Positions 4,237-16,562 of a stretch of DNA of 64,000 bases are shown one piece after another. The number at the start of each line of letters is the position of its first letter. The stretch's first letter is position 1. Source of the DNA: Thermanaeromonas sp. C210 (GTDB lineage: Bacteria > Bacillota > DSM-521 > Neomoorellales > Neomoorellaceae). The position numbers and the translations under genes are program-made. The stretch spans positions 248,001 to 312,000 of the forward strand of contig NZ_BLWF01000003.1 in NCBI RefSeq assembly GCF_013167955.1. The letters run 5' to 3'. The notes below the pieces were generated by a model. It did no database searches. It saw nothing but the letters and a program-made list of their open reading frames with translations, and was not told where the DNA came from.

Positions 4237-4781
4237 GCAACCCCCCCTAGTTTATAATGAAAACCAAAAGTGGACGCGAAAGGTAGATAAAGGGAAATAC
4301 TGAAGAAATAGATTACTCCAGATGGAATGGTCTTACGGCAACGAGAGATTTAGAATTACGCTTTCCTAGTGCTAAACGGAACTGTAGTGTTTAAAACATC
4401 TTACTTTAACATCAAGCGTCGGTCAAGATAAAAAACATCCTGAGACATCCCAAGTTTTCATGGAACTGGCAAAGCAGAAGGGATTTGGGTTGTTAGCAAT
4501 TTCCAGGCAAGAGATATTTTCTAGAAGGGATAAAATCCTACTTTCCAGAGTTTGGGACACGACCTTTTTTGTGGAACTGGCAACAAGCGTCACTGACGTC
4601 CCTGCTGTTCGCGATAATTGCCTGCCAGCATTAGAAAGCATTCTATCTAACAAAGCCGTACCTCAAGGGGGATACGCAAGGTTTGGGCATTACGAAGGAG
4701 AGTCAACGCTTGTGTAAAATTAAGCTTTCCTATAAAAGGGAATAGTTAAAGTAAAGTCCATTAAATGAGGGGGTTTTAACT
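4237..4781. other. 545-bp intergenic region between regulator and amidohydrolase
   Basis: Probable regulatory region for the divergent regulator and the catabolic cluster. It holds an 85-codon plus-strand frame (4460-4717) with no visible Shine-Dalgarno and no recognised family; it stays open upstream to about 4388, so it may be a decayed gene end rather than a gene. Just before the amidohydrolase start is an SD-like GAGGGGG at 4767-4773. Confidence 0.4.
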
Positions 4782-5540
4782 TTGGGAATATCCATTTGGG
4801 AAATGAAACAAAAGGTCTGTAAAGCGGTAGACGAAAGGGCCAATGATCTTATATCTATGGGCAACTATTTATTTCATAATCCGGAGTTGGGCTTTAAGGA
4901 ATTTAATACTGCTGCCTTTATATCTCAACAAATAGAACAAATGGGTCTCCCGTATAAGAAAGGGCTAGCTATAACAGGAGTTAAGGCTTATATTGATACG
5001 GGCAAACCCGGCCCAACGGTGGCAGTATTGGGAGAATTGGATGCAGTTATTTGTCCGGAACACCCTGCCGCAAACAAAGAAACTGGCGCGGCACATTGTT
5101 GTGGACATCATGCTCAACTTGTAAACATGTTGGGTGTTGGTATGGGACTTTTAGATTCAGGGATTCTTCAGGAACTTTGTGGCCGGGTTATACTTTTTGC
5201 AACGCCAGCAGAGGAACCGTTCGAGGCAGAATACAGAGCCAAGCTAAAAGAGGAAGGAAAATTAAAATTTACATGTGGTGGTAAGCAGGAGTTAATTAGA
5301 ATAGGGGAATTTGATGATATCGATTTAGCACTATTTGTCCATACTGGAACTCAAAACGTAATGAGAATAACTAGTAATGCATTTATTTCAAAGAGAGTAA
5401 TATTCTCTGGAAAGGAAGCTCACGCTGGAAATGCTCCACATCTCGGAATTAATGCCCTAAATGCCGCCACAATAGCATGGACAGCAATAAATTCATTAAG
5501 GGAAACATTTATAGAAGAAGATTATGTAAGAGTACATGGA

Positions 5541-5548
5541 ATCATGCC
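5541..5548 (+). repeat. 8-bp target-site duplication, left copy (ATCATGCC)
   Basis: ATCATGCC occurs immediately before the IS256-type element and again immediately after it (6992-6999). An 8-9 bp duplication is typical of IS256-family transposition. It falls on the codons Ile-Met-Pro of the interrupted amidohydrolase. Confidence 0.88.
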
Positions 5549-6991
5549 AGCGTTGTCCCAAAAATCGTGGAAAATGAAGGTGGCGGTCCCTCAATCCTCT
5601 GTGATATAACAGAGGTGGACAATCCATACAAAAGGAGGTAACCGCCACCAATGCCAGTATATCACAAGTCAAAAGAAAACCCAATATCCTCCGGAGGCTT
5701 TCCTAACTTACCTGACCATGTACAAGTATCCTTAAGGGAGATCATAGGTAAAGCCAAGGAAGGGCTCTTAGCCCTTTCCGTTGCCGTAGGCTTGGATGTG
5801 GTTCAATCCATGATGGAGGCCGAAGTAACTGAGATAGCGGGACCCAAAGGAAAGCACAATCCGGAGCGCACAGCTAGACGTCATGGGAGCGAGAAAGGTA
5901 GCGTGGTGTTAGGGGGGCGAAAGGTGGCGATCCGGCGTCCCCGGGTGCGCGCCATAAACGGCAGAGAAGTAAAACTTAAAACCTATGAAGCCTTCCAGGA
6001 TGAAAGGTTCATAACTGAGACAGTTCTAGAGCATATACTTTACGGGTTATCCATAAGGCACTATAAGCATAGCCTTGAACCCATAGGAGAAGAATTACCT
6101 GTTCATGGGACTTCCAAGAGCACCATAAGCCGGCGATTTATCTACGCTACCCGTAAGGCCTTAGAGGAGCTGCTAAGCAGGCCTTTGGGAGACAAACGTT
6201 TCTTGGTTCTGGTAATTGATGGGGTTGTGTTTGCCGGGCATACAGTGGTAGCTGCTTTAGGCATCACTGACAAAGGCGAAAAAGAGGTCTTGGGCTTATG
6301 GGAAGGGGCTACAGAGAATGCTGCAGTCTGTAGGTCTCTTCTTACCAACCTTGTAGAACGCGGCCTAAAGGTGGAAGAGGGTATACTGGTGGTCATAGAC
6401 GGCTCCAAAGCTTTAAGGGCGGCGGTTAAAGAAGTTTTTGGTAATCGGGCCGTAGTACAGAGGTGCCAGGTGCATAAGAAGCGGAACGTCTTAGAACACC
6501 TGCCCAAAGGAGCCCAAGAATGGGTGGGTAAGAAGCTAGAGCAAGCCTGGTCAGAAAAGGATTATCATAAGGCTTTAACGGAACTAAATAGGCTAGCTGA
6601 TGCCCTTGAAGATAAGTACCCTGGGGCAGCGAGGAGCCTGCGGGAGGGATTAGAGGAGACGCTGACCGTTACCCGTCTAGGTCTACCCGAAACCCTGTGG
6701 AAAACTTTACGGTCAACGAATGTAATAGAGACGGCCTTTGACAAGGTCAGGGTTGTTACCCGGAACGTAAAGAGGTGGCGAAATGGGATGCAGGTTTTGC
6801 GCTGGGCTGCAGCTGGACTGCTTCAGGCCGAGAAGGGGTTTAACCGCATCAAAGGATACCGAGAGTTACCCTTATTGGCCACGGCTTTGCTGGAAGTCAT
6901 TACTACTCCAGAGACTTCCAGGAGGGTGAAAACGGCTTAAAAAACGCGAAAGAGGGCGCCACCAAAATTCCACGACGTTTAGGACATGCTC
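5549..6991 (+). mobile_element. IS256-family insertion sequence, complete copy
   Basis: 1443 bp with one transposase gene and imperfect terminal inverted repeats: the left end begins AGCGTTGTCCC and continues with TCGTGGAA and GGTGGCG, while the reverse complement of the right end contains GCATGTCCTAA, then GTCGTGGAA and GGTGGCG. It is flanked by the direct repeat ATCATGCC and splits an amidohydrolase gene. The right 1237 bp recur almost identically at 15326-16562. Confidence 0.92.
5651..6940 (+). CDS. IS256 (mutator)-family transposase
   Basis: 429 aa, about normal for the family. Cut-and-paste/copy transposase with a DDE core: the first Asp lies in VLVIDGVVFAGH, the second in VVIDGSKAL, followed by the conserved RCQVHKKRNV signature and, near the C-terminus, LRSTNVIETAFDKVR with the conserved Glu. 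The ATG is preceded by AAAGGAGGT at a good distance. The gene is intact, so the element is probably active. Confidence 0.95.
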   Translation: MPVYHKSKENPISSGGFPNLPDHVQVSLREIIGKAKEGLLALSVAVGLDVVQSMMEAEVTEIAGPKGKHNPERTARRHGSEKGSVVLGGRKVAIRRPRVRAINGREVKLKTYEAFQDERFITETVLEHILYGLSIRHYKHSLEPIGEELPVHGTSKSTISRRFIYATRKALEELLSRPLGDKRFLVLVIDGVVFAGHTVVAALGITDKGEKEVLGLWEGATENAAVCRSLLTNLVERGLKVEEGILVVIDGSKALRAAVKEVFGNRAVVQRCQVHKKRNVLEHLPKGAQEWVGKKLEQAWSEKDYHKALTELNRLADALEDKYPGAARSLREGLEETLTVTRLGLPETLWKTLRSTNVIETAFDKVRVVTRNVKRWRNGMQVLRWAAAGLLQAEKGFNRIKGYRELPLLATALLEVITTPETSRRVKTA

Positions 6992-6999
6992 ATCATGCC
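6992..6999 (+). repeat. 8-bp target-site duplication, right copy (ATCATGCC)
   Basis: Second copy of the duplicated target next to the right end of the IS256-type element. It re-enters the amidohydrolase frame exactly. Confidence 0.88.
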
Positions 7000-7764
7000 G
7001 CAAGGTGGGAGAATTGCTATTTCTGTTCCAGCTGAAGTAAGTATGGAGATTATAGTTAGAGCTAAAACAATAGAAACAACAATCGCTATTAATGAAAAGG
7101 TAAATCGGGCTTTAAAAGCAGGCGCGATGGCAGTGGGAGCTAAGGTAGAAATTATAGATACTCCTGGCTTTTTGCCCCTGAGTCCAAACGAAAAAATGGC
7201 CAAGTTATTTGAAAACAACTTTAAATCTTTATTACCGAATGAGAGCTTTGTTGAACACATTCATTTTAAAGGTGCATTTGATATGGGGGATGTAGGACAC
7301 ATTATTCCCCAAGTTCACCCAATGATGGGTGGAATTGAAGGCAATCTACATCAACGAGACTTTACTATCGTTGATGAACAAATGGTATATATTAACCCTG
7401 CAAAATTAATTGCTATGACAATAATTGATTTATTATCTAATAATGCAAACGAAGCAAAAGAGATAATCAAAACATTCCAACCCAAGCTTTCAAAAGATGA
7501 TTATGTTCACTTATTAAATAGCTTATCAAAGATAGCCGTTTTCAATTATTTTGATTAAAACTTAAAGAGGAACGGTTATATTACTTGTTTCGAGTTGGGG
7601 TGGTAGGTGCCCCGGTCAGTTTGCTAAGGGGGTGATTCCTAACCATAAAAAATTTTAATTAGTCAATCGAGAGGTTTTAAAGGAGGTGATCCTGAAATAA
7701 AAAATCCTCATAGGTTATTAGAAACGAGATTTTTACCAAAAAAGGAAGATAAAGGAGGGTTATA

Positions 7765-7881
7765 ATGTTTACCCCAGAAAACATTTGGACTTTGGGAGAA
7801 AAAATCCTTTTTCCGATACAGATAGTTATTAGCATTATCATCCTAATATCAATCTTTAGGGAATACAAAGTTAAAAATTAA
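7765..7881 (+). CDS. 38-residue single-span membrane peptide upstream of MFS transporter
   Basis: A short frame with a near-perfect SD (AAAGGAGGG, 7 nt before the ATG). It encodes about 12 soluble residues (MFTPENIWTLGEK), one strongly hydrophobic span (ILFPIQIVIS then IIILISIF) and a basic tail (REYKVKN). Its stop codon is followed at once by a potential ATG and, 21 bp later, by the likely MFS start, so the two are co-transcribed and probably translationally coupled. The likely role is a small accessory or stabilising subunit of the transporter. That is inferred from position and topology; I do not recognise a family. Confidence 0.6.
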   Translation: MFTPENIWTLGEKILFPIQIVISIIILISIFREYKVKN

Positions 7882-7902
7882 ATGCTCGAGGTGGGAATAA
7901 AA

Positions 7903-9267
7903 ATGGAAAAACCCAAAACTAAATGGCGAATTCGTTATACAGCCTTAATCTGTATGTGGATAGCTTACTGTATGTTACAACTGGACCGTCAAAAAACTAC
8001 GGTTTTAATGCCAGTTATTCGTGAAGATATCGGGTTGGATCATGCCCAAATAGGTATTTTGATCGGTACGTTTACCTTAATTTTTGCCACAATGCAATTT
8101 ATATCAGGTTATATAGTGAATAGAGTAGGTCTTAAAAGGGTTATGGCGGTAGCGCTTGCCGGGTTCTCGGTTTCCACCTGGTGGACCGGTTTTGTGACAA
8201 GCTTTGAATCCTTTTTGTTCAGGTATGCAATCTTTGGTTGGTTCGAAGGGTTAAATCCCCCGGCTGCAGTTCAATTAGTTTCCCGATGGTTTCCCAAGAG
8301 AGAAAGAGGTAAAGCGTCGGCTGTTTGGGCAACAACCTGGGTAATAACACCAATTTGGGCGCCGATAGTGGCTGTAGCACTCATGAATGCTACTAGCTGG
8401 AGGTGGGTGTTTGGCTTCTGCGCTTTAGCAGGATTACCCGCTCTACTATTAATTAAGTATTTTATCTTTGACCGGCCTGAACAGTATCGTTTTAAGGGGA
8501 AAACTATGCCCGAATATGAATTGGAGGAAATCTATGAAGATGAAATAGCAGAAGAACAAAAAAAGAACCCTGCAAAGGTTATCACATATAAGGATGTTAT
8601 TAATAAAAAAGACGGAACGGCTTTGAGGGTTGCCGATGTTTATAAAAATGTATCTATTTGGTTATTAAGCCTGGCAGCCTTTTTCCACAACACCTTATTT
8701 TGGGGAATGAACATTTGGCTTCCCCTCTATTTAACGGAAGTACACAAGTATAATATGCAGACTATGGCTATATTAGTTGGATTGTACAATTTATCTGGAG
8801 CCATTGGCCAATTCCTATGTGGCGCAGTTTCAGACCGAATTGGCGTGCGTAGGCCATTTATGATTGCTTCTAATTTATTGAGCCTACTGTTTATGATTTT
8901 ATTTGTTACTTTAATTAAACCAGGTACACCCTTTATTGTAACGGCTTTATTGCTGCTAGTTACGGGCTTTTTCCTCAATATGCATTGGGCCGTACAGGCA
9001 GCCCTGAGTAGCGAACTTTCTTCCCCAGATCTTGGTAGTGTAGCTATTGGAGTGGTCAATGGAATGGCCCAATATGGCTCAGCTGCGGCAGGCTATGTTA
9101 CTGGTTTTTTGGTTTACAAAACACCTCAAGGGACAACAGTCTATGATAATGCCTTCATCTACTGGGGTCTTTCGGCATTATTAGCTGCACTATTTGTTTA
9201 CTTAATTAAAGAAAAATCTCGTAAGGTACCAGAAGCTGCGCCTCAACCAGTTAAGACAAATATTTAG
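7903..9267 (+). CDS. MFS transporter, about 12 membrane spans
   Basis: 454 aa from the ATG at 7903, preferred because CTCGAGGTGGG precedes it; an in-frame ATG at 7882 abuts the previous stop but has no SD. The sequence shows two halves of hydrophobic spans joined by a charged central loop (residues about 200-245, rich in E and K). The loop between spans 2 and 3 has the MFS motif A form (NRVGLKRVMAVALAG), repeated in the second half as SDRIGVRRPFM. The N-terminal span with the conserved Asp-Arg pair (MLQLDRQKTTVLMPV) resembles anion:cation symporter-type MFS proteins that carry organic acids. Its place between two amidohydrolases and a GcvT-type protein suggests uptake of an N-substituted amino acid or amide. 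The substrate is not determinable here. Confidence 0.85.
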   Translation: MEKPKTKWRIRYTALICMWIAYCMLQLDRQKTTVLMPVIREDIGLDHAQIGILIGTFTLIFATMQFISGYIVNRVGLKRVMAVALAGFSVSTWWTGFVTSFESFLFRYAIFGWFEGLNPPAAVQLVSRWFPKRERGKASAVWATTWVITPIWAPIVAVALMNATSWRWVFGFCALAGLPALLLIKYFIFDRPEQYRFKGKTMPEYELEEIYEDEIAEEQKKNPAKVITYKDVINKKDGTALRVADVYKNVSIWLLSLAAFFHNTLFWGMNIWLPLYLTEVHKYNMQTMAILVGLYNLSGAIGQFLCGAVSDRIGVRRPFMIASNLLSLLFMILFVTLIKPGTPFIVTALLLLVTGFFLNMHWAVQAALSSELSSPDLGSVAIGVVNGMAQYGSAAAGYVTGFLVYKTPQGTTVYDNAFIYWGLSALLAALFVYLIKEKSRKVPEAAPQPVKTNI

Positions 9268-9419
9268 ATTATGATTTAATTTCCTAATGAGAGAATTGTA
9301 AACCTAGAGGGTTCCCTCTGATTAAGTTTTTATGAAATCTGCAACTCGAAATCGGAGGGAAACTTAAGTTAAATAAACCAATTTTAAGAATATATTTGGA
9401 GAGGAGCCTTGTCTTTATT

Positions 9420-10964
9420 ATGAAACATACCCCCTTATACGAAAGGCATATGCAGATGGCTTCCAAAGTTATTAACCTTAAGGGTTTTGCACGTCCGGTA
9501 GAATATTTTGGCCATATACAAGAACATCATGCGGTCCGTGAAAGAGTTAGTATCTGTGATGTTTCACATATGGGAGAGTTCGAAATAAAGGGTAAAGATG
9601 CGCTAGCCTTAGTACAGAAGTTAATAACAAATGATGCCAGCAAACTTTCTATTAATCAAGCCCTTTATGCGGTTATGTGTAATGAGAATGGAGGTATTAT
9701 AGATGACCTAATTTGTTACCGCTTGGGAGAAGATCATTTTCTTTGGGTTGTTAATGTCACGAAAACCGAAGAGGATTATCAGTGGGTTTTAAAGCAATCG
9801 CAAGGAATGAATGTGACAGTCAAGAATCTTTCATGCGAAATAGCGTTAATCGCTCTGCAGGGACCAAATTCCAGGGAAGTTCTACAGAGAGTAACAAAAG
9901 CAGATCTGTCGGAGTTAAAGTATTATTGGCTTGCAAACACAGTAATCAGTACAGAAAGCATGGAAGTTCCTTGTATTATTAGTCGGACGGGGTATACAGG
10001 AGAACTGGGCTATGAAATTTTTGTTTCCAGGGAACTGGCTCCTCTTGTATGGGATGAGCTTTTATTAGTTGGCAGGCCTCTGGGAATTATTCCGCATGGA
10101 GTCGCCGCCCGGGAAAGTCTAAGAATAGAAGCAGGCTATTTACTTAACGGAAATGATATGGACGAGGAAACTAATCCATTTGAGGTAGGTTTAGAATGGG
10201 TTGTTAAATTTTCAAAGGAGTTCATTGGCAAACAAGCTTTATTAAAGATATTAGAGAATGGAATTAGTCGAAAGCTGGTAGGGTTTGAGGTCCTCGAACG
10301 CTACACTGTTAGATATGGATACCCAATATATAAAAACGGAAAACAGATAGGCCATGTAACTAGCGGCCCACTTTCTCCAAGTCTAATTAATAGAAGTGCA
10401 GGTTTGGGATTTGTGCCTGTGGAATACAGTGATGTAGGTACAGAAATTGAAATAGGGATTAGAGAGAAGAAATGTAAGGCCCGTATTGTCCCGGTACCGT
10501 TTTGCAAGCGTAGAGTTAAGGATGAACCGGTTATGAAGACTCACTCTCCTTACAACCTAAGATTTAGTACTTTCCATGTTTGGGTACATCAAGAAACTGA
10601 TAATGTTTTTACGCTTGGTATAACTGATTTTATACAAAGAGATCTAGGCGATATACTCTTTATTGAATTACCAAAGGTCGGAGATAAAATTGTTAAGGAT
10701 TCAATCTTAGGTTGGGTTGATGCTTACAGAAAGGTTTGGGATATCAAATCACCGCTATCTGGAGAGGTGATAGAAATAAATACGAGCTTATTAGAAAACC
10801 CAGAGCAAATCAATAAATATCCTTATACTAATTCAGGGTTAGTAAGAATAAAAGTGAATGCTTTGGATGATTACAAGACATTGTTGCGATACGAAGAATA
10901 TATGGAAGTCATTAGGCAGCTTCGACGATATGATAATTGGTCCAAAGAAAAGAGAATAACCTAA
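9420..10964 (+). CDS. GcvT-like aminomethyltransferase fused to a GcvH-like domain
   Basis: 514 aa. Residues about 1-370 match the glycine-cleavage T protein/folate-dependent demethylase fold: SICDVSHMGEFEIKG, NENGGIIDDLICYR with the folate-site Asp, LQGPNSRE, SRTGYTGELGYEIFV and AARESLRIEAGYLL. Residues about 375-500 are a lipoyl-carrier (GcvH-like) domain ending in SPLSGEVIEIN. In canonical GcvH the lipoylated Lys lies eight residues before that Pro. Here that position is Arg437 and a Lys (438) is one residue later. Such enzymes move a one-carbon unit from an N-methyl or aminomethyl group to tetrahydrofolate. No gcvP, gcvPA/PB or separate gcvH is nearby, so a role in demethylating an amino compound made by the amidohydrolases is more likely than glycine cleavage. 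ATG 9420 follows GAGAGGAG. Confidence 0.82.
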   Translation: MKHTPLYERHMQMASKVINLKGFARPVEYFGHIQEHHAVRERVSICDVSHMGEFEIKGKDALALVQKLITNDASKLSINQALYAVMCNENGGIIDDLICYRLGEDHFLWVVNVTKTEEDYQWVLKQSQGMNVTVKNLSCEIALIALQGPNSREVLQRVTKADLSELKYYWLANTVISTESMEVPCIISRTGYTGELGYEIFVSRELAPLVWDELLLVGRPLGIIPHGVAARESLRIEAGYLLNGNDMDEETNPFEVGLEWVVKFSKEFIGKQALLKILENGISRKLVGFEVLERYTVRYGYPIYKNGKQIGHVTSGPLSPSLINRSAGLGFVPVEYSDVGTEIEIGIREKKCKARIVPVPFCKRRVKDEPVMKTHSPYNLRFSTFHVWVHQETDNVFTLGITDFIQRDLGDILFIELPKVGDKIVKDSILGWVDAYRKVWDIKSPLSGEVIEINTSLLENPEQINKYPYTNSGLVRIKVNALDDYKTLLRYEEYMEVIRQLRRYDNWSKEKRIT

Positions 10965-11093
10965 ATTTATTACTATACCCTATGTTTCAATGAATGGAAG
11001 TACAGAATTCCTTCATTGATACAAAAAGGAATAAGGTTTTTTAAGATTTGCCTTTTATGTAGTTAATTAAATATATCTAGGGGAGGGGCAAAA

Positions 11094-12341
11094 ATGTCCT
11101 TGAAGATCAATGGTAAGCGACTAAAAGAACGTTTGATTGCTTTATCCGAATTCGGCAAGGATGAGGCTGGTGGCTGGAGCAGGTTTACTTGGACTGATGA
11201 TTATATTAGGGCCAAAGAGCTAGTGAAACAATGGATGCGAGAGGCTGGTATGACGGTTCGGGAAGACGCTATGGGTAATGTGTTTGGACGTTTAGCTGGT
11301 TTGGATGATTCTTTACCGGTTGTTGCTGCCGGGTCCCATATTGATAGCGTTAAGTGTGGCGGGATGTTTGATGGGAATGTAGGGGTGTTGGGGGCTCTAG
11401 AAGTAATTACGACAATTGCTGAAAACAAGATTAAAACTAAACATCCTCTGGAAGTAATTATCTTTGTTGAAGAAGACGGGGCGCGTTTTAACTGGAGAAT
11501 TCTGGGCGCCCGTGCCATGGTCGGAGAGGTAGCAAGGGAGTCTTTGGATAAATATAAAGATAAAGACGGCATTTCGATCGCCCAAGCGATGGAGGCGGCG
11601 GGGTATGATCCTAATAAAATTAGTGAGGTCAAAATTGATCCAAAGTATTACAAGTGTTTCTTCGAAATGCATATCGAGCAAAGTCATTGCCTGGAATCTG
11701 AGGGGGTTTCGGTGGGCGTTGTAGAAGGTATTTTTGGTTCGGTCTGGCTTAAGGTGACGTTAAAGGGTAGGGCTGATCACGCAGGCGCGACCCCGATGAA
11801 ATTTAGAAAAGACGCTTTAGTTGCGGCTTCTGAAATTATCATTGCCATGGAAAAGATTGCTAAGGAAGCCGGAGAAACCACCGTAGGTACCGTAGGGTGG
11901 ATTAGTGTTCAACCTTGTATGATTAATACAATTCCGGGCATTGTGGAGATGACTTTAGATATCCGGGATATAAATGAAAAAAATCTAGAGACGGCCATTA
12001 ATAACATCCGGCAATTTATCGGGGAAGTCTGTAAAAAACGTAACATCGAAGTGGAAATTGAAGAAGTTGTCCGTTTTTCTCCTATACATTTCCCTGATCA
12101 CATGATTGATACAGTGGAACAAGCGGCGAAAGAAGAAGGGATTCCCTTTATGCGCATCGCCAGCGGAGCGGGACATGATGCCCAAGCCCTGGCTAAGCTT
12201 ATCGATGTAGGAATGATTTTTACTCCCAGTAGAGGGGGTTTGAGCCACTGTCCCGATGAGTACACCGACTATGAAGACATTGCTAAGTGTGCCCAGGTAT
12301 TGTTGAAGGCGATGCTTAAGAAGGCTGAAGTTGTTGCGTAA
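11094..12341 (+). CDS. N-carbamoyl-L-amino-acid hydrolase/allantoate amidohydrolase family (M20)
   Basis: 415 aa, the usual family length. A dinuclear-metal amidohydrolase that removes a carbamoyl (ureido) group, releasing CO2, ammonia and an amino acid. Metal and substrate motifs are in order: AAGSHIDSV, GMFDGNVGVLGALEV, FVEEDGARF, FEMHIEQSH, the lid-domain GRADHAGATPM and C-terminal ASGAGHDAQALA. The ATG follows AGGGGAGGGG. It is the last gene of the island cluster, 129 bp after the GcvT-GcvH fusion. In known pathways it follows a hydantoinase or allantoinase, neither of which is in the window, so the carbamoyl compound must come from elsewhere or be imported. Sarcosine from N-carbamoylsarcosine would be a fitting substrate for the neighbouring GcvT-like protein; this is a hypothesis. 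Confidence 0.9.
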   Translation: MSLKINGKRLKERLIALSEFGKDEAGGWSRFTWTDDYIRAKELVKQWMREAGMTVREDAMGNVFGRLAGLDDSLPVVAAGSHIDSVKCGGMFDGNVGVLGALEVITTIAENKIKTKHPLEVIIFVEEDGARFNWRILGARAMVGEVARESLDKYKDKDGISIAQAMEAAGYDPNKISEVKIDPKYYKCFFEMHIEQSHCLESEGVSVGVVEGIFGSVWLKVTLKGRADHAGATPMKFRKDALVAASEIIIAMEKIAKEAGETTVGTVGWISVQPCMINTIPGIVEMTLDIRDINEKNLETAINNIRQFIGEVCKKRNIEVEIEEVVRFSPIHFPDHMIDTVEQAAKEEGIPFMRIASGAGHDAQALAKLIDVGMIFTPSRGGLSHCPDEYTDYEDIAKCAQVLLKAMLKKAEVVA

Positions 12342-12368
12342 TTCTGGTCAAGAGAGTTTAAAACTGGG

Positions 12369-12620
12369 TCATCCCCACTTTCTATCTATATACACGGTAG
12401 CAGGGAAGGTAAGAATCCCAATAGTCGGCGGCAACTTACCTTGAAAGCGTTCAGTATAATATCCAACTTGCCACAGCCCCAGAATGCATCTTTTGGTAGT
12501 GGAACTTGCTACCAGTTTGCGGTGATAGAGCCGATATGCCAAAGCTGCTAATGTTTTCCTCTGGGACTTGCGCAACTCCATAAACCATGTTATAAAACTT
12601 GAGAAATCTTTAAAACTCAG
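12369..12620 (-). pseudogene. N-terminal fragment of an IS4-type transposase
   Basis: After an SD (AAGGAGGA on the minus strand) the frame reads SFKDFSSFITWFMELRKSQ then RKTLAALAYRLY, the typical opening of IS4-type transposases. The rest loses similarity and soon reaches a stop, about 80 codons in all against 350 or more for the family. A decayed remnant at the right side of the catabolic cluster. Confidence 0.5.
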
Positions 12621-12719
12621 GGGAATCCTCCTTTCAATGGTTGTTTACCTAAATTATTTTTTCGAAAGGGGGATTCCCTTTTCCTTCCTCGCTTTCAATT
12701 CGAGAATATCAGAATCGAG

Positions 12720-12809
12720 GTAAGCGTCAAATACAACCCACCTTGGCACCACCCCCAAGTTTAGGGGATAATCCTCTTCAGAAAACAAGCTGAGGAGGAT
12801 TTTTATTAT
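12720..12809 (+). repeat. Solo IS66 left end abutting IS66 copy 2
   Basis: Begins GTAAGCGTCAAATACAACCC and runs through the IS66 leader (inverted repeat, GGGGATAATCCTC, GAGGAGGAT) up to where tnpA should start, then stops at TTTTATTAT, exactly where the next IS66 left end begins at 12810. It resembles the leader of copy 1 more than that of copy 2, so it is probably the remains of a third element into which copy 2 inserted or with which it recombined. Confidence 0.7.
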
Positions 12810-12898
12810 GTAAGCGTCAAATATAACCCACCTTGGCATTGTGCTCGAGTTTAAGGGATAATCTTCCTCGGAAAACTAACTGAGGAGGATTTCCCCTT

Positions 12899-13225
12899 AT
12901 GACCAGAGCCGAATTACAGCAACTGTGGGAAGCTCGTATAGCCGAATACAGGGAAAGCGGGCAAAGCGTTAAAGAATGGTGCGCCTCCCATGAGGGCATT
13001 AGCCCCAGGCAGTTATGGTACTGGCTGCGGAAGTATAAAGACCAAAACGGAGTTTCCCTCGAGAAGCCAACCCGTTGGCTGCCGGTAGAAATAAGCGAGT
13101 CATCTTCTGGGGATGGGGGCAACTCCTTGCTGGTCAGGATAGGCAAGACCAGCATCGAGGTAAGACCCGGGTTTGACCCGGCCTTGCTCACCCAGGTAGT
13201 CCGGGTGCTGATAGCGTTATGCTAA
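12899..13225 (+). CDS. tnpA: IS66 accessory protein TnpA
   Basis: 108 aa, HTH-type IS66 Orf1 with the KEWCASHEGISPRQLWYWL segment. The SD is TGAGGAGG upstream of the ATG. It differs from the copy at 1624-1950 only in the first third. Its last 7 bp overlap the tnpB start. Confidence 0.9.
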   Translation: MTRAELQQLWEARIAEYRESGQSVKEWCASHEGISPRQLWYWLRKYKDQNGVSLEKPTRWLPVEISESSSGDGGNSLLVRIGKTSIEVRPGFDPALLTQVVRVLIALC

Positions 13226-13575
13226 ACGAAGTTGGTATCGACCGGGTTTACCTCGCCTGCGGCGCCACAGACTTGCGTAAATCTATTGACGGCCTGGCGG
13301 TGCTGGTCAAGGAAGGCTTCGAGCTGGACCCCTTCTCTTCCTGCCTCTTTGTCTTTTGCAACCGTAAGAGGGACAAACTGAAGATTCTCCATTGGGAGCA
13401 CAACGGGTTTTGGCTTTATTACCGCCGGCTGGAGAAGGGCAAATTCATATGGCCGGTGGGAAATACTTCTTCTACCATCACCATAAGCCGCCGGGAGCTG
13501 CGCTGGCTGCTTGATGGTCTTCCCTTAAACCAGCCTAAAGCCCATCCTGAGGTAAAAGCGCGCACCATCTTGTAA
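13219..13575 (+). CDS. tnpB: IS66 accessory protein TnpB
   Basis: 118 aa, identical to the protein at 1274-1630. It contains the TnpB signature (ACGATDLRKSIDGL) and the LFVFCNRKRDKLKIL block. It lies between tnpA (overlap 7 bp) and tnpC (80-bp gap), the standard IS66 layout. Confidence 0.93.
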   Translation: MLNEVGIDRVYLACGATDLRKSIDGLAVLVKEGFELDPFSSCLFVFCNRKRDKLKILHWEHNGFWLYYRRLEKGKFIWPVGNTSSTITISRRELRWLLDGLPLNQPKAHPEVKARTIL

Positions 13576-13655
13576 TATAAAGCCTCAGGAAGAAATATTT
13601 TTACCTTATGGTTGATTCTAGAGGAATTGGGGCTGATTCGTCGAATTATTAAAGC

Positions 13656-15230
13656 ATGGACACGGCTAAGTCTATAGCTACCATGACCATAGAAGAGCTG
13701 CGAGAGCACTGTGCTCAATTGGAACAACAGGTTGCCGAACTTACCGCCAAGTTAAACTGGTTTATGGAGCAGTTCCGTTTAAGCAAGAAGCGGCAATTCG
13801 GTTCTTCCAGCGAGAGGACTTGCGCACTAGAAGAGCAGCTTTTGCTTTTTAATGAGGCGGAAGCGGAAGCCCGGCCGGAAGCAGTTGAACCGGATTTGGA
13901 GACCATCACCTACCAGCGCCGTAAAACGCGCGGCCGCCGGGAGATGAACCTGGAAGAGCTGCCGGTAGAAGTAGTAGAGCACCGCCTGCCGGAAGAGGAG
14001 CGGGTCTGCCCGTGCTGCGGTGGCCCTTTACATGAAATGAGCACCGAAGTGCGGCAGGAGCTCAAAATTATCCCGGCCCAAGTGAAAGTGGTCAAGCACG
14101 TGCGCTACGTCTATTCTTGCCGCCGCTGCGAGAAAGAAGAGATAACCACTCCTGTTATCACGGCGCCCATGCCTGCTCCTGTACTTCCGGGAAGCCCGGT
14201 ATCTCCCTCGCTTCTTAGCTACATTATGACCCAGAAATACGGGGCAGGATTACCCCTTTACCGCCAGGAGCAGCAGTTTAAAAGCTTAGGGATAGACCTT
14301 TCCCGGCAGACCATGGCCAACTGGGTGCTCCATGGAGCTAACACCTACTTAACCCTTATTTACGACCGTCTCCATGAACACCTTCTTAAAAGAGACATTC
14401 TCCATGCCGATGAGACCACGTTGCAGGTACTTCATGAACCGGGAAGGGAAGCTACCACCAAATCATTCCTTTGGCTTTACCGTACCGGGCGGGACGGTCC
14501 CCCGATTATCCTCTACGACTACCAGACCACCCGGGCCGGCAAACACCCCCGCCGGTTTCTAAAAGGTTTTAAGGGCTATTTGCATGTTGACGGCTATGAG
14601 GGCTACAATGGACTTTCAGAGGTCACCCTGGTGGGCTGCTGGGCTCACGCCCGGCGCAAGTTTGATGAAGCCTTAAAAGCCCTGCCGCAAGATAAAAGAA
14701 ACAAAGCAGTAGCCGCCCGGGAGGGGCTTAAGTTCTGCAACAGGCTTTTTGCCATAGAGCGCGAACTTAAAGACAAAACCCCGGAAGAACGATATCAAAT
14801 CCGGCAGGAGCGCAGCAAACCAGAGCTGGACGAATTTTTAGCATGGCTTAAGAAGCAGAAAGCGCAGGTGCTGCCCAAAAGTGCCTTTGGGCGGGCGGTC
14901 TATTATTGCCTGGACCAATGGGAGAAACTTGTCGCCTTTTTACAAGACGGGCGTTTGGAACTCGACAACAACCGCAGCGAGCGTTCTATAAAACCCTTCG
15001 TCATTGGCCGTAAGAACTGGTTATTTGCCAACACCCCGCGGGGTGCTAAAGCGAGTGCTATTGTCTACAGCATCATAGAGACAGCCAAGGAAAACGGGTT
15101 AAATCCCTTCCACTACCTTACCTACCTCTTCGAAAGGCTGCCCAACCTGGACCCGCAGGATAAAGAGGAATTAGATCAACTCCTGCCGTGGTCGGAAACT
15201 CTGCCTTCTGTTTGCCGGATGAATAATTAA
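13656..15230 (+). CDS. tnpC: IS66 transposase TnpC
   Basis: 524 aa, full length. The N-terminal leucine-zipper-like coiled coil (residues about 10-40) is followed by a zinc-binding segment (CPCCGG about residue 118, CRRCEKEE about 155) and the DDE domain: first Asp in [11 protein letters not shown], second in [14 protein letters not shown] with [10 protein letters not shown] behind it, and the Glu in [16 protein letters not shown]. The C-terminal IS66 domain ([11 protein letters not shown]) closes the protein. An intact gene, so a candidate source of transposase for all IS66 copies. Confidence 0.95.
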
Positions 15231-15325
15231 GCTTGTTTTAGCCCCTACCCCTTAGATGATTTCAGTAGGGGTTCTTTTATGCTTACTACCGCAACCCAAC
15301 AAGGTGGGTAGTATTTGACGCTTAC

Positions 15326-16511
15326 CAAGGAAGGGCTCTTAGCCCTTTCCGTTGCCGTAGGCTTGGATGTGGTTCAATCCATGATGGAGGCCGAAGTAAC
15401 TGAGATAGCGGGACCCAAAGGAAAGCACAATCCGGAGCGCACAGCTAGACGTCATGGGAGCGAGAAAGGTAGCGTGGTGTTAGGGGGGCGAAAGGTGGCG
15501 ATCCGGCGTCCCCGGGTGCGCGCCATAAACGGCAGAGAAGTAAAACTTAAAACCTATGAAGCCTTCCAGGATGAAAGGTTCATAACTGAGACAGTTCTAG
15601 AGCATATACTTTACGGGTTATCCATAAGGCACTATAAGCATAGCCTTGAACCCATAGGAGAAGAATTACCTGTTCATGGGACTTCCAAGAGCACCATAAG
15701 CCGGCGATTTATCTACGCTACCCGTAAGGCCTTAGAGGAGCTGCTAAGCAGGCCTTTGGGAGACAAACGTTTCTTGGTTCTGGTAATTGATGGGGTTGTG
15801 TTTGCCGGGCATACAGTGGTAGCTGCTTTAGGCATCACTGACAAAGGCGAAAAAGAGGTCTTGGGCTTATGGGAAGGGGCTACAGAGAATGCTGCAGTCT
15901 GTAGGTCTCTTCTTACCAACCTTGTAGAACGCGGCCTAAAGGTGGAAGAGGGTATACTGGTGGTCATAGACGGCTCCAAAGCTTTAAGGGCGGCGGTTAA
16001 AGAAGTTTTTGGTAATCGGGCCGTAGTACAGAGGTGCCAGGTGCATAAGAAGCGGAACGTCTTAGAACACCTGCCCAAAGGAGCCCAAGAATGGGTGGGT
16101 AAGAAGCTAGAGCAAGCCTGGTCAGAAAAGGATTATCATAAGGCTTTAACGGAACTAAATAGGCTAGCTGATGCCCTTGAAGATAAGTACCCTGGGGCAG
16201 CGAGGAGCCTGCGGGAGGGATTAGAGGAGACGCTGACCGTTACCCGTCTAGGTCTACCCGAAACCCTGTGGAAAACTTTACGGTCAACGAATGTAATAGA
16301 GACGGCCTTTGACAAGGTCAGGGTTGTTACCCGGAACGTAAAGAGGTGGCGAAATGGGATGCAGGTTTTGCGCTGGGCTGCAGCTGGACTGCTTCAGGCC
16401 GAGAAGGGGTTTAACCGCATCAAAGGATACCGAGAGTTACCCTTATTGGCCACGGCTTTGCTGGAAGTCATTACTACTCCAGAGACTTCCAGGAGGGTGA
16501 AAACGGCTTAA
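15326..16511 (+). pseudogene. IS256 transposase lacking its first 35 residues
   Basis: From KEGLLALSVAVGLDVV onwards the protein equals that of 5651-6940, including all DDE residues. The native start and SD are gone. An open frame runs back into the IS66 end (a TTG/ATG-like start near 15315 would add only MTLT), so a nearly complete protein could be made only if transcription and initiation came from IS66 sequences. I treat it as a pseudogene. Confidence 0.85.
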
Positions 16512-16562
16512 AAAACGCGAAAGAGGGCGCCACCAAAATTCCACGACGTTTAGGACATGCTC
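15326..16562 (+). mobile_element. IS256-type element, 5'-truncated copy between IS66 and CRISPR
   Basis: Matches 5755-6991 of the complete copy base for base as far as I can read, with a constant offset of 9571. The first 206 bp of the element (left inverted repeat, SD and 35 transposase codons) are missing and replaced by the IS66 right end. The intact right end stops at 16562, and the first CRISPR repeat begins at 16563. Confidence 0.92.

Follow-up and report, generated by a model that had tools for sequence, protein, structure and literature searches.

Proteins of the major facilitator superfamily (MFS) are mostly regarded as working alone. As described in the available sections of one published account, small-protein modulators are established for other transporter classes, with partners given for PTS, PiT, P-type, MntP, RND, and ABC transporters; the MFS entry among the table rows shown there is ProP, under osmoregulation (PMC10710835). 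Among the matches listed in the literature on small membrane proteins and transporters and on NSS small subunits, nothing concerned a bacterial MFS small subunit, and the phrase "MFS transporter small subunit" was absent from the literature searched. Two protein families bear names of this kind. NF047966 (MFS_OXA_tail_dom, "MFS transporter small subunit") describes a short single-span peptide that is paired with an MFS protein through NCBI naming. NF045580 ("symporter small accessory protein") describes peptides of about 35 residues with one span, transporter accessories by name, whose partners we take to be sodium:solute symporters and not MFS proteins.

Here we analyzed a stretch of 64,000 nucleotides from Thermanaeromonas sp. 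C210 (contig NZ_BLWF01000003.1, positions 248,001 to 312,000), referred to below as the window, in which a candidate membrane peptide gene directly precedes an MFS gene (Table 1). The peptide gene comprises 38 codons, from ATG 7765 to the stop codon TAA at 7879-7881, and its translation is MFTPENIWTLGEKILFPIQIVISIIILISIFREYKVKN. The Shine-Dalgarno (SD) sequence AAAGGAGGG lies 5 nt ahead of the ATG and matches the 16S complement over 8 nt. The best 19-residue Kyte-Doolittle mean (h19) of the peptide is 2.49, with a single span, and its C-terminal tail, REYKVKN, is basic. A preliminary description of this locus had claimed a strong SD, one hydrophobic span with a basic tail, and a distance of 21 bp between the peptide stop and the likely MFS start, and the sequence bears out each of these features. 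The extent it gave, 7765-7905, takes in the first MFS codon; the 38-residue frame itself ends at 7881. We took ATG 7903 as the MFS start because it has the better SD match (6 nt, versus 4 nt for ATG 7882) and because it aligns with the starts of two MFS relatives.

Table 1. Coordinates of the peptide gene, the MFS gene, and the associated signals within the window.
Feature	Position	Strand	Evidence and remarks
TAAAGGAGGTGATCC, very long SD-like string ahead of the 22-codon frame	7678..7692	+	Longest in the window
Possible 22-codon frame	7697..7765	+	Coding-like codon usage; codons 7697-7762, TAA 7763-7765
TAAAGGAGG, SD of the peptide gene	7750..7758	+	Sequence inspection
Candidate gene for a 38-aa single-span membrane peptide	7765..7881	+	ATG frame, SD, h19, codon usage
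21-bp gap with the MFS SD (GAGGTGG) and alternative in-frame ATG 7882	7882..7902	+	Sequence, SD comparison
MFS transporter, 454 aa	7903..9267	+	PF07690 at 5.7e-63; start from SD and alignment

The peptide frame was compared with chance expectation using cut-offs that were chosen with the frame already known, so that the figures are not clean probabilities. When the spacer (7559-7902) was shuffled 5000 times with its dinucleotide content preserved, 538 of the shuffled sequences contained an ATG frame 38 or more codons long; in 95 this frame was also led by an SD of 5 nt or more, and in none did it further have a span of near-equal hydrophobicity. Twenty stretches of 20 kb from the same genome (400 kb) provided 283 examinable genes, a sample that is probably unlike the AT-rich island around the MFS gene in base composition. 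A short ATG frame ended near the gene start in 48 of these 283 cases; 16 of the frames carried an SD, and 1 carried both an SD and a span. This lone comparable case is an SD-led single-span frame of 39 aa (L078:17251-17370), located 61 bp before the next gene, which by its looks we take to encode an HD-domain protein. Codon usage was scored with a model trained on five neighboring coding stretches, with a leave-one-gene-out control. The peptide frame scored 0.118 bits per codon, a value reached by none of 178 off-frame 38-codon segments, and 63% of 89 in-frame segments scored at or below it. Together, shuffles, genome sample, and codon usage argue well for a gene without settling the matter. 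Because no shuffle passed all the criteria, only 1 of the 283 genes was preceded by a comparable frame, and the codon usage is like that of the neighboring genes, we consider it probable that a genuine gene encodes this small membrane protein and is translated together with the MFS gene. The earlier proposal of such a coupled gene is thus supported by the SD, the codon usage, the spacing, and the chance controls.

A second, shorter frame lies immediately upstream and had been described as weak, a description that proved accurate: the frame lacks ATG, GTG, and TTG, has ATA at 7697, and has a stop codon that overlaps the peptide ATG as TAATG. Its codon usage is nonetheless coding-like, with only 1.9% of 320 off-frame segments scoring as high, and family searches with it gave no match. 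The frame may start at ATA, may have lost an ATG, or may reflect an assembly error. The 15-nt SD-like string ahead of it compares with 10 nt for the second-best string in the window, and we take its last 14 nt to be complementary to the conserved tail of the 16S rRNA. The string occurs once in the genome assembly searched, and therefore no 16S gene with exactly such an end is shown in that sequence.

The closest solved structure to the MFS protein by sequence is 6e9n, the D-galactonate:proton symporter of Escherichia coli (4.9e-19), which also ranks first by fold, with 22% identity over the fold alignment; we know of no small subunit for this symporter. A terminator-like site was looked for between the peptide and MFS genes, and none was found. 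Control of the MFS gene by a preceding riboswitch or attenuator was considered and rejected: at E ≤ 5, Rfam gave no match across 4300-12700, and the RNA folds no better than its shuffles (z-scores of 0.09 and 0.70).

In its AT-rich surroundings, the MFS gene is accompanied by a broken M20-type gene, a GcvT-GcvH fusion, and a gene for an M20 family amidohydrolase. From these neighbors, the transporter may import an amide or ureide compound; literature on creatinine breakdown offered nothing useful for the genes adjoining the MFS gene. In the stretch made up of 4782-5609, 5651-6940, and 6986-7558, the M20-type gene appears to be split by a transposase gene, presumably of the IS256 type, and most of the insert (5754-6991) is repeated identically at 15325-16562. 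The fusion, at 9420-10961, is in frame; in the eight related loci examined, GcvT is in every case a separate frame of about 360 to 380 aa. At a larger scale, two inverted arms that are 98.1% identical (1-2044 and 12805-14848) enclose an AT-rich island of catabolic genes. From their protein sequences we take the arms to be IS66-like, and arms and island together resemble a composite transposon.

Relatives of the MFS protein were sought widely, and none exceeded 34% identity in any collection searched. One protein scan of genome contigs returned no close ortholog, and an alignment scan gave 12 loci at 25 to 32% identity. Whole-genome searches of the class (22 genomes), of two draws from the phylum (398 and 397 genomes), and of two further classes (82 and 113 genomes) reached 34% at best, the second phylum draw returning the same best genome as the first. 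The single genome of one further order contained no relative, nor did viral contigs, and plasmid relatives reached 29% at best among the matches listed. Likewise, in 11 stretches around relatives of the other two neighboring genes, tblastn detected no MFS relative (E ≤ 1e-3) and no match to the peptide (E ≤ 100).

We then assembled 26 distinct MFS relatives from the 12 alignment-scan loci and 14 whole-genome loci, counting six repeat loci once and leaving out two copies that repeat both loci of one genome. The region upstream of each was searched for a frame of 25 to 70 residues with any start codon, an SD match of 5 nt or longer, and an h19 of 1.6 or higher, ending between 150 nt before and 60 nt after any possible MFS start. 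The frame in the window passes this rule, and no SD-led hydrophobic frame was found at any of the 26 relatives, all of which are 25 to 34% identical to the MFS protein; one of them has an upstream hydrophobic frame, but this lacks an SD of the required length. The peptide thus appears to be no general feature of the wider MFS family. This says little about true orthologs, because proteins at 25 to 34% identity represent different subfamilies. The preliminary description had proposed a search upstream of MFS homologs and named absence of the peptide from orthologous genes as what would count against it; the search gave none in 26, and relatives this distant leave that objection unproven. With the peptide itself as the query, 12 of 61 genomes gave a match at E ≤ 1, namely its own genome and 11 with weak matches (E of 0.03 to 1) that are at chance level. 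At the four of these 11 whose surrounding frames were inspected, none of those frames had the look of an MFS gene. There is no second copy in its own genome and no tblastn match on plasmids. Within the collections searched, the peptide so far appears to be an orphan found in one genome only.

What might such a peptide do? Our best single guess, and the most likely function, though one we put forward tentatively, is that the peptide serves the MFS protein as an accessory, a view based on its position and shape. The peptide would be a 38-residue single-span inner-membrane protein, oriented according to the positive-inside rule with the basic C-terminus facing the cytoplasm and the N-terminus on the outer side. 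Translation from one message is probable because the two genes lie on the same strand 21 bp apart, and the ribosome would terminate on the peptide gene near the point where the MFS gene begins. Once inserted in the membrane, the peptide would bind the MFS protein and, beside it, could help its assembly, stability, or activity, with a consequent effect on transport. We also modeled peptide and MFS protein as an artificial read-through fusion with AlphaFold2, using an alignment of 12 sequences, 11 of them MFS relatives from the alignment scan that lack the peptide. The resulting MFS fold is good (pTM 0.77), with the peptide as one helix and no confident docking; because the pLDDT of this helix is about 43 to 60, no interface is defined, and the model speaks neither for nor against binding. 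Of the earlier claim of an accessory subunit, the coupled membrane protein gene is supported, and the subunit role is suggested by position and shape. A more specific version is possible but doubtful, namely a dedicated subunit or stabilizer of a D-galactonate-symporter-like MFS importer, from a family outside Pfam, NCBIfam, and PHROGs, with the 22-codon frame perhaps as a third member.

Alternatively, the frame could be a leader whose translation counts for more than its product, with ribosomes loading at the SD at 7750, ending at 7881, and restarting at ATG 7882 or 7903, which would raise or tune MFS expression. The strong SD ahead of the peptide, the stop codon abutting ATG 7882 at the head of the 21-bp gap, and the second, longer SD-like string farther upstream all agree with such a leader. 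However, an SD of its own precedes the MFS gene, the region shows no terminator, unusual RNA fold, or Rfam match, and a leader would not need a clean membrane span and a basic tail; we regard this explanation as unlikely, if a serious one. The frame might also be functionless, either lineage specific or decaying on an acquired island. Its presence in one genome and in none of the 26 MFS relatives is consistent with this, and decay is conceivable because the AT-rich surroundings are filled with insertion sequences and include the M20 gene that one of them has split. We nevertheless think it improbable that the frame has no function, since SD, frame, codon usage, and span are all intact, the combination of length, SD, and span arose in none of the 5000 shuffles, and the MFS gene that follows is likewise undamaged.

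The peptide might also act in the membrane independently of the MFS protein, for example as a regulator or a toxin-like peptide; only its shape speaks for this. The tight position before the MFS gene argues against it, as do the lack of Pfam, NCBIfam, and PHROGs matches and of a second copy in the genome, and we give it little credence. That the peptide gives the MFS protein a 13th span, joined to it by a TAA that is read through or erroneous, is very unlikely. The two genes do lie in the same reading frame, with the in-frame ATG 7882 immediately after the TAA, but a shared frame is expected by chance at one in three, and the MFS gene carries a separate SD and a start at 7903 aligned with those of its relatives.

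We therefore return to the accessory role and to how the peptide compares with described small subunits. Searches of Pfam, NCBIfam, and PHROGs with the 38-aa peptide matched no family. No match was obtained to NF047966 at E ≤ 10 (threshold, 24 bits) or to NF045580 (threshold, 35 bits). Control peptides were detected by both models, with 60.3 bits on NF047966 and 76 bits on NF045580; the NF047966 model thus works, because its control peptide was scored in the same search. Judged by these profiles, the window peptide belongs to neither family, and it may still work like them. Like NF047966, it is short and single-span, and its gene adjoins that of an MFS protein, 21 bp ahead of one that matches PF07690. 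In contrast to NF047966, the MFS protein of the window stays under the curated threshold for the oxalate/formate subfamily, and its scores place it closer to D-galactonate/phosphoglycerate transporters than to oxalate/formate ones.

The candidate is plausibly a new small membrane protein, ordinary in kind, and it currently stands as one orphan candidate; if a small subunit were proven, it would contribute an MFS example whose genetic arrangement is clear. In size and span it is alike to NF045580. It also resembles transporter accessory small proteins such as AcrZ and MgtS in being short, at 38 aa, with a single span (h19 = 2.49). The likeness to AcrZ is one of description: this 49-aa protein is a small single helix that acts on the efflux pump AcrB (PMC10710835), which is an RND and not an MFS transporter.
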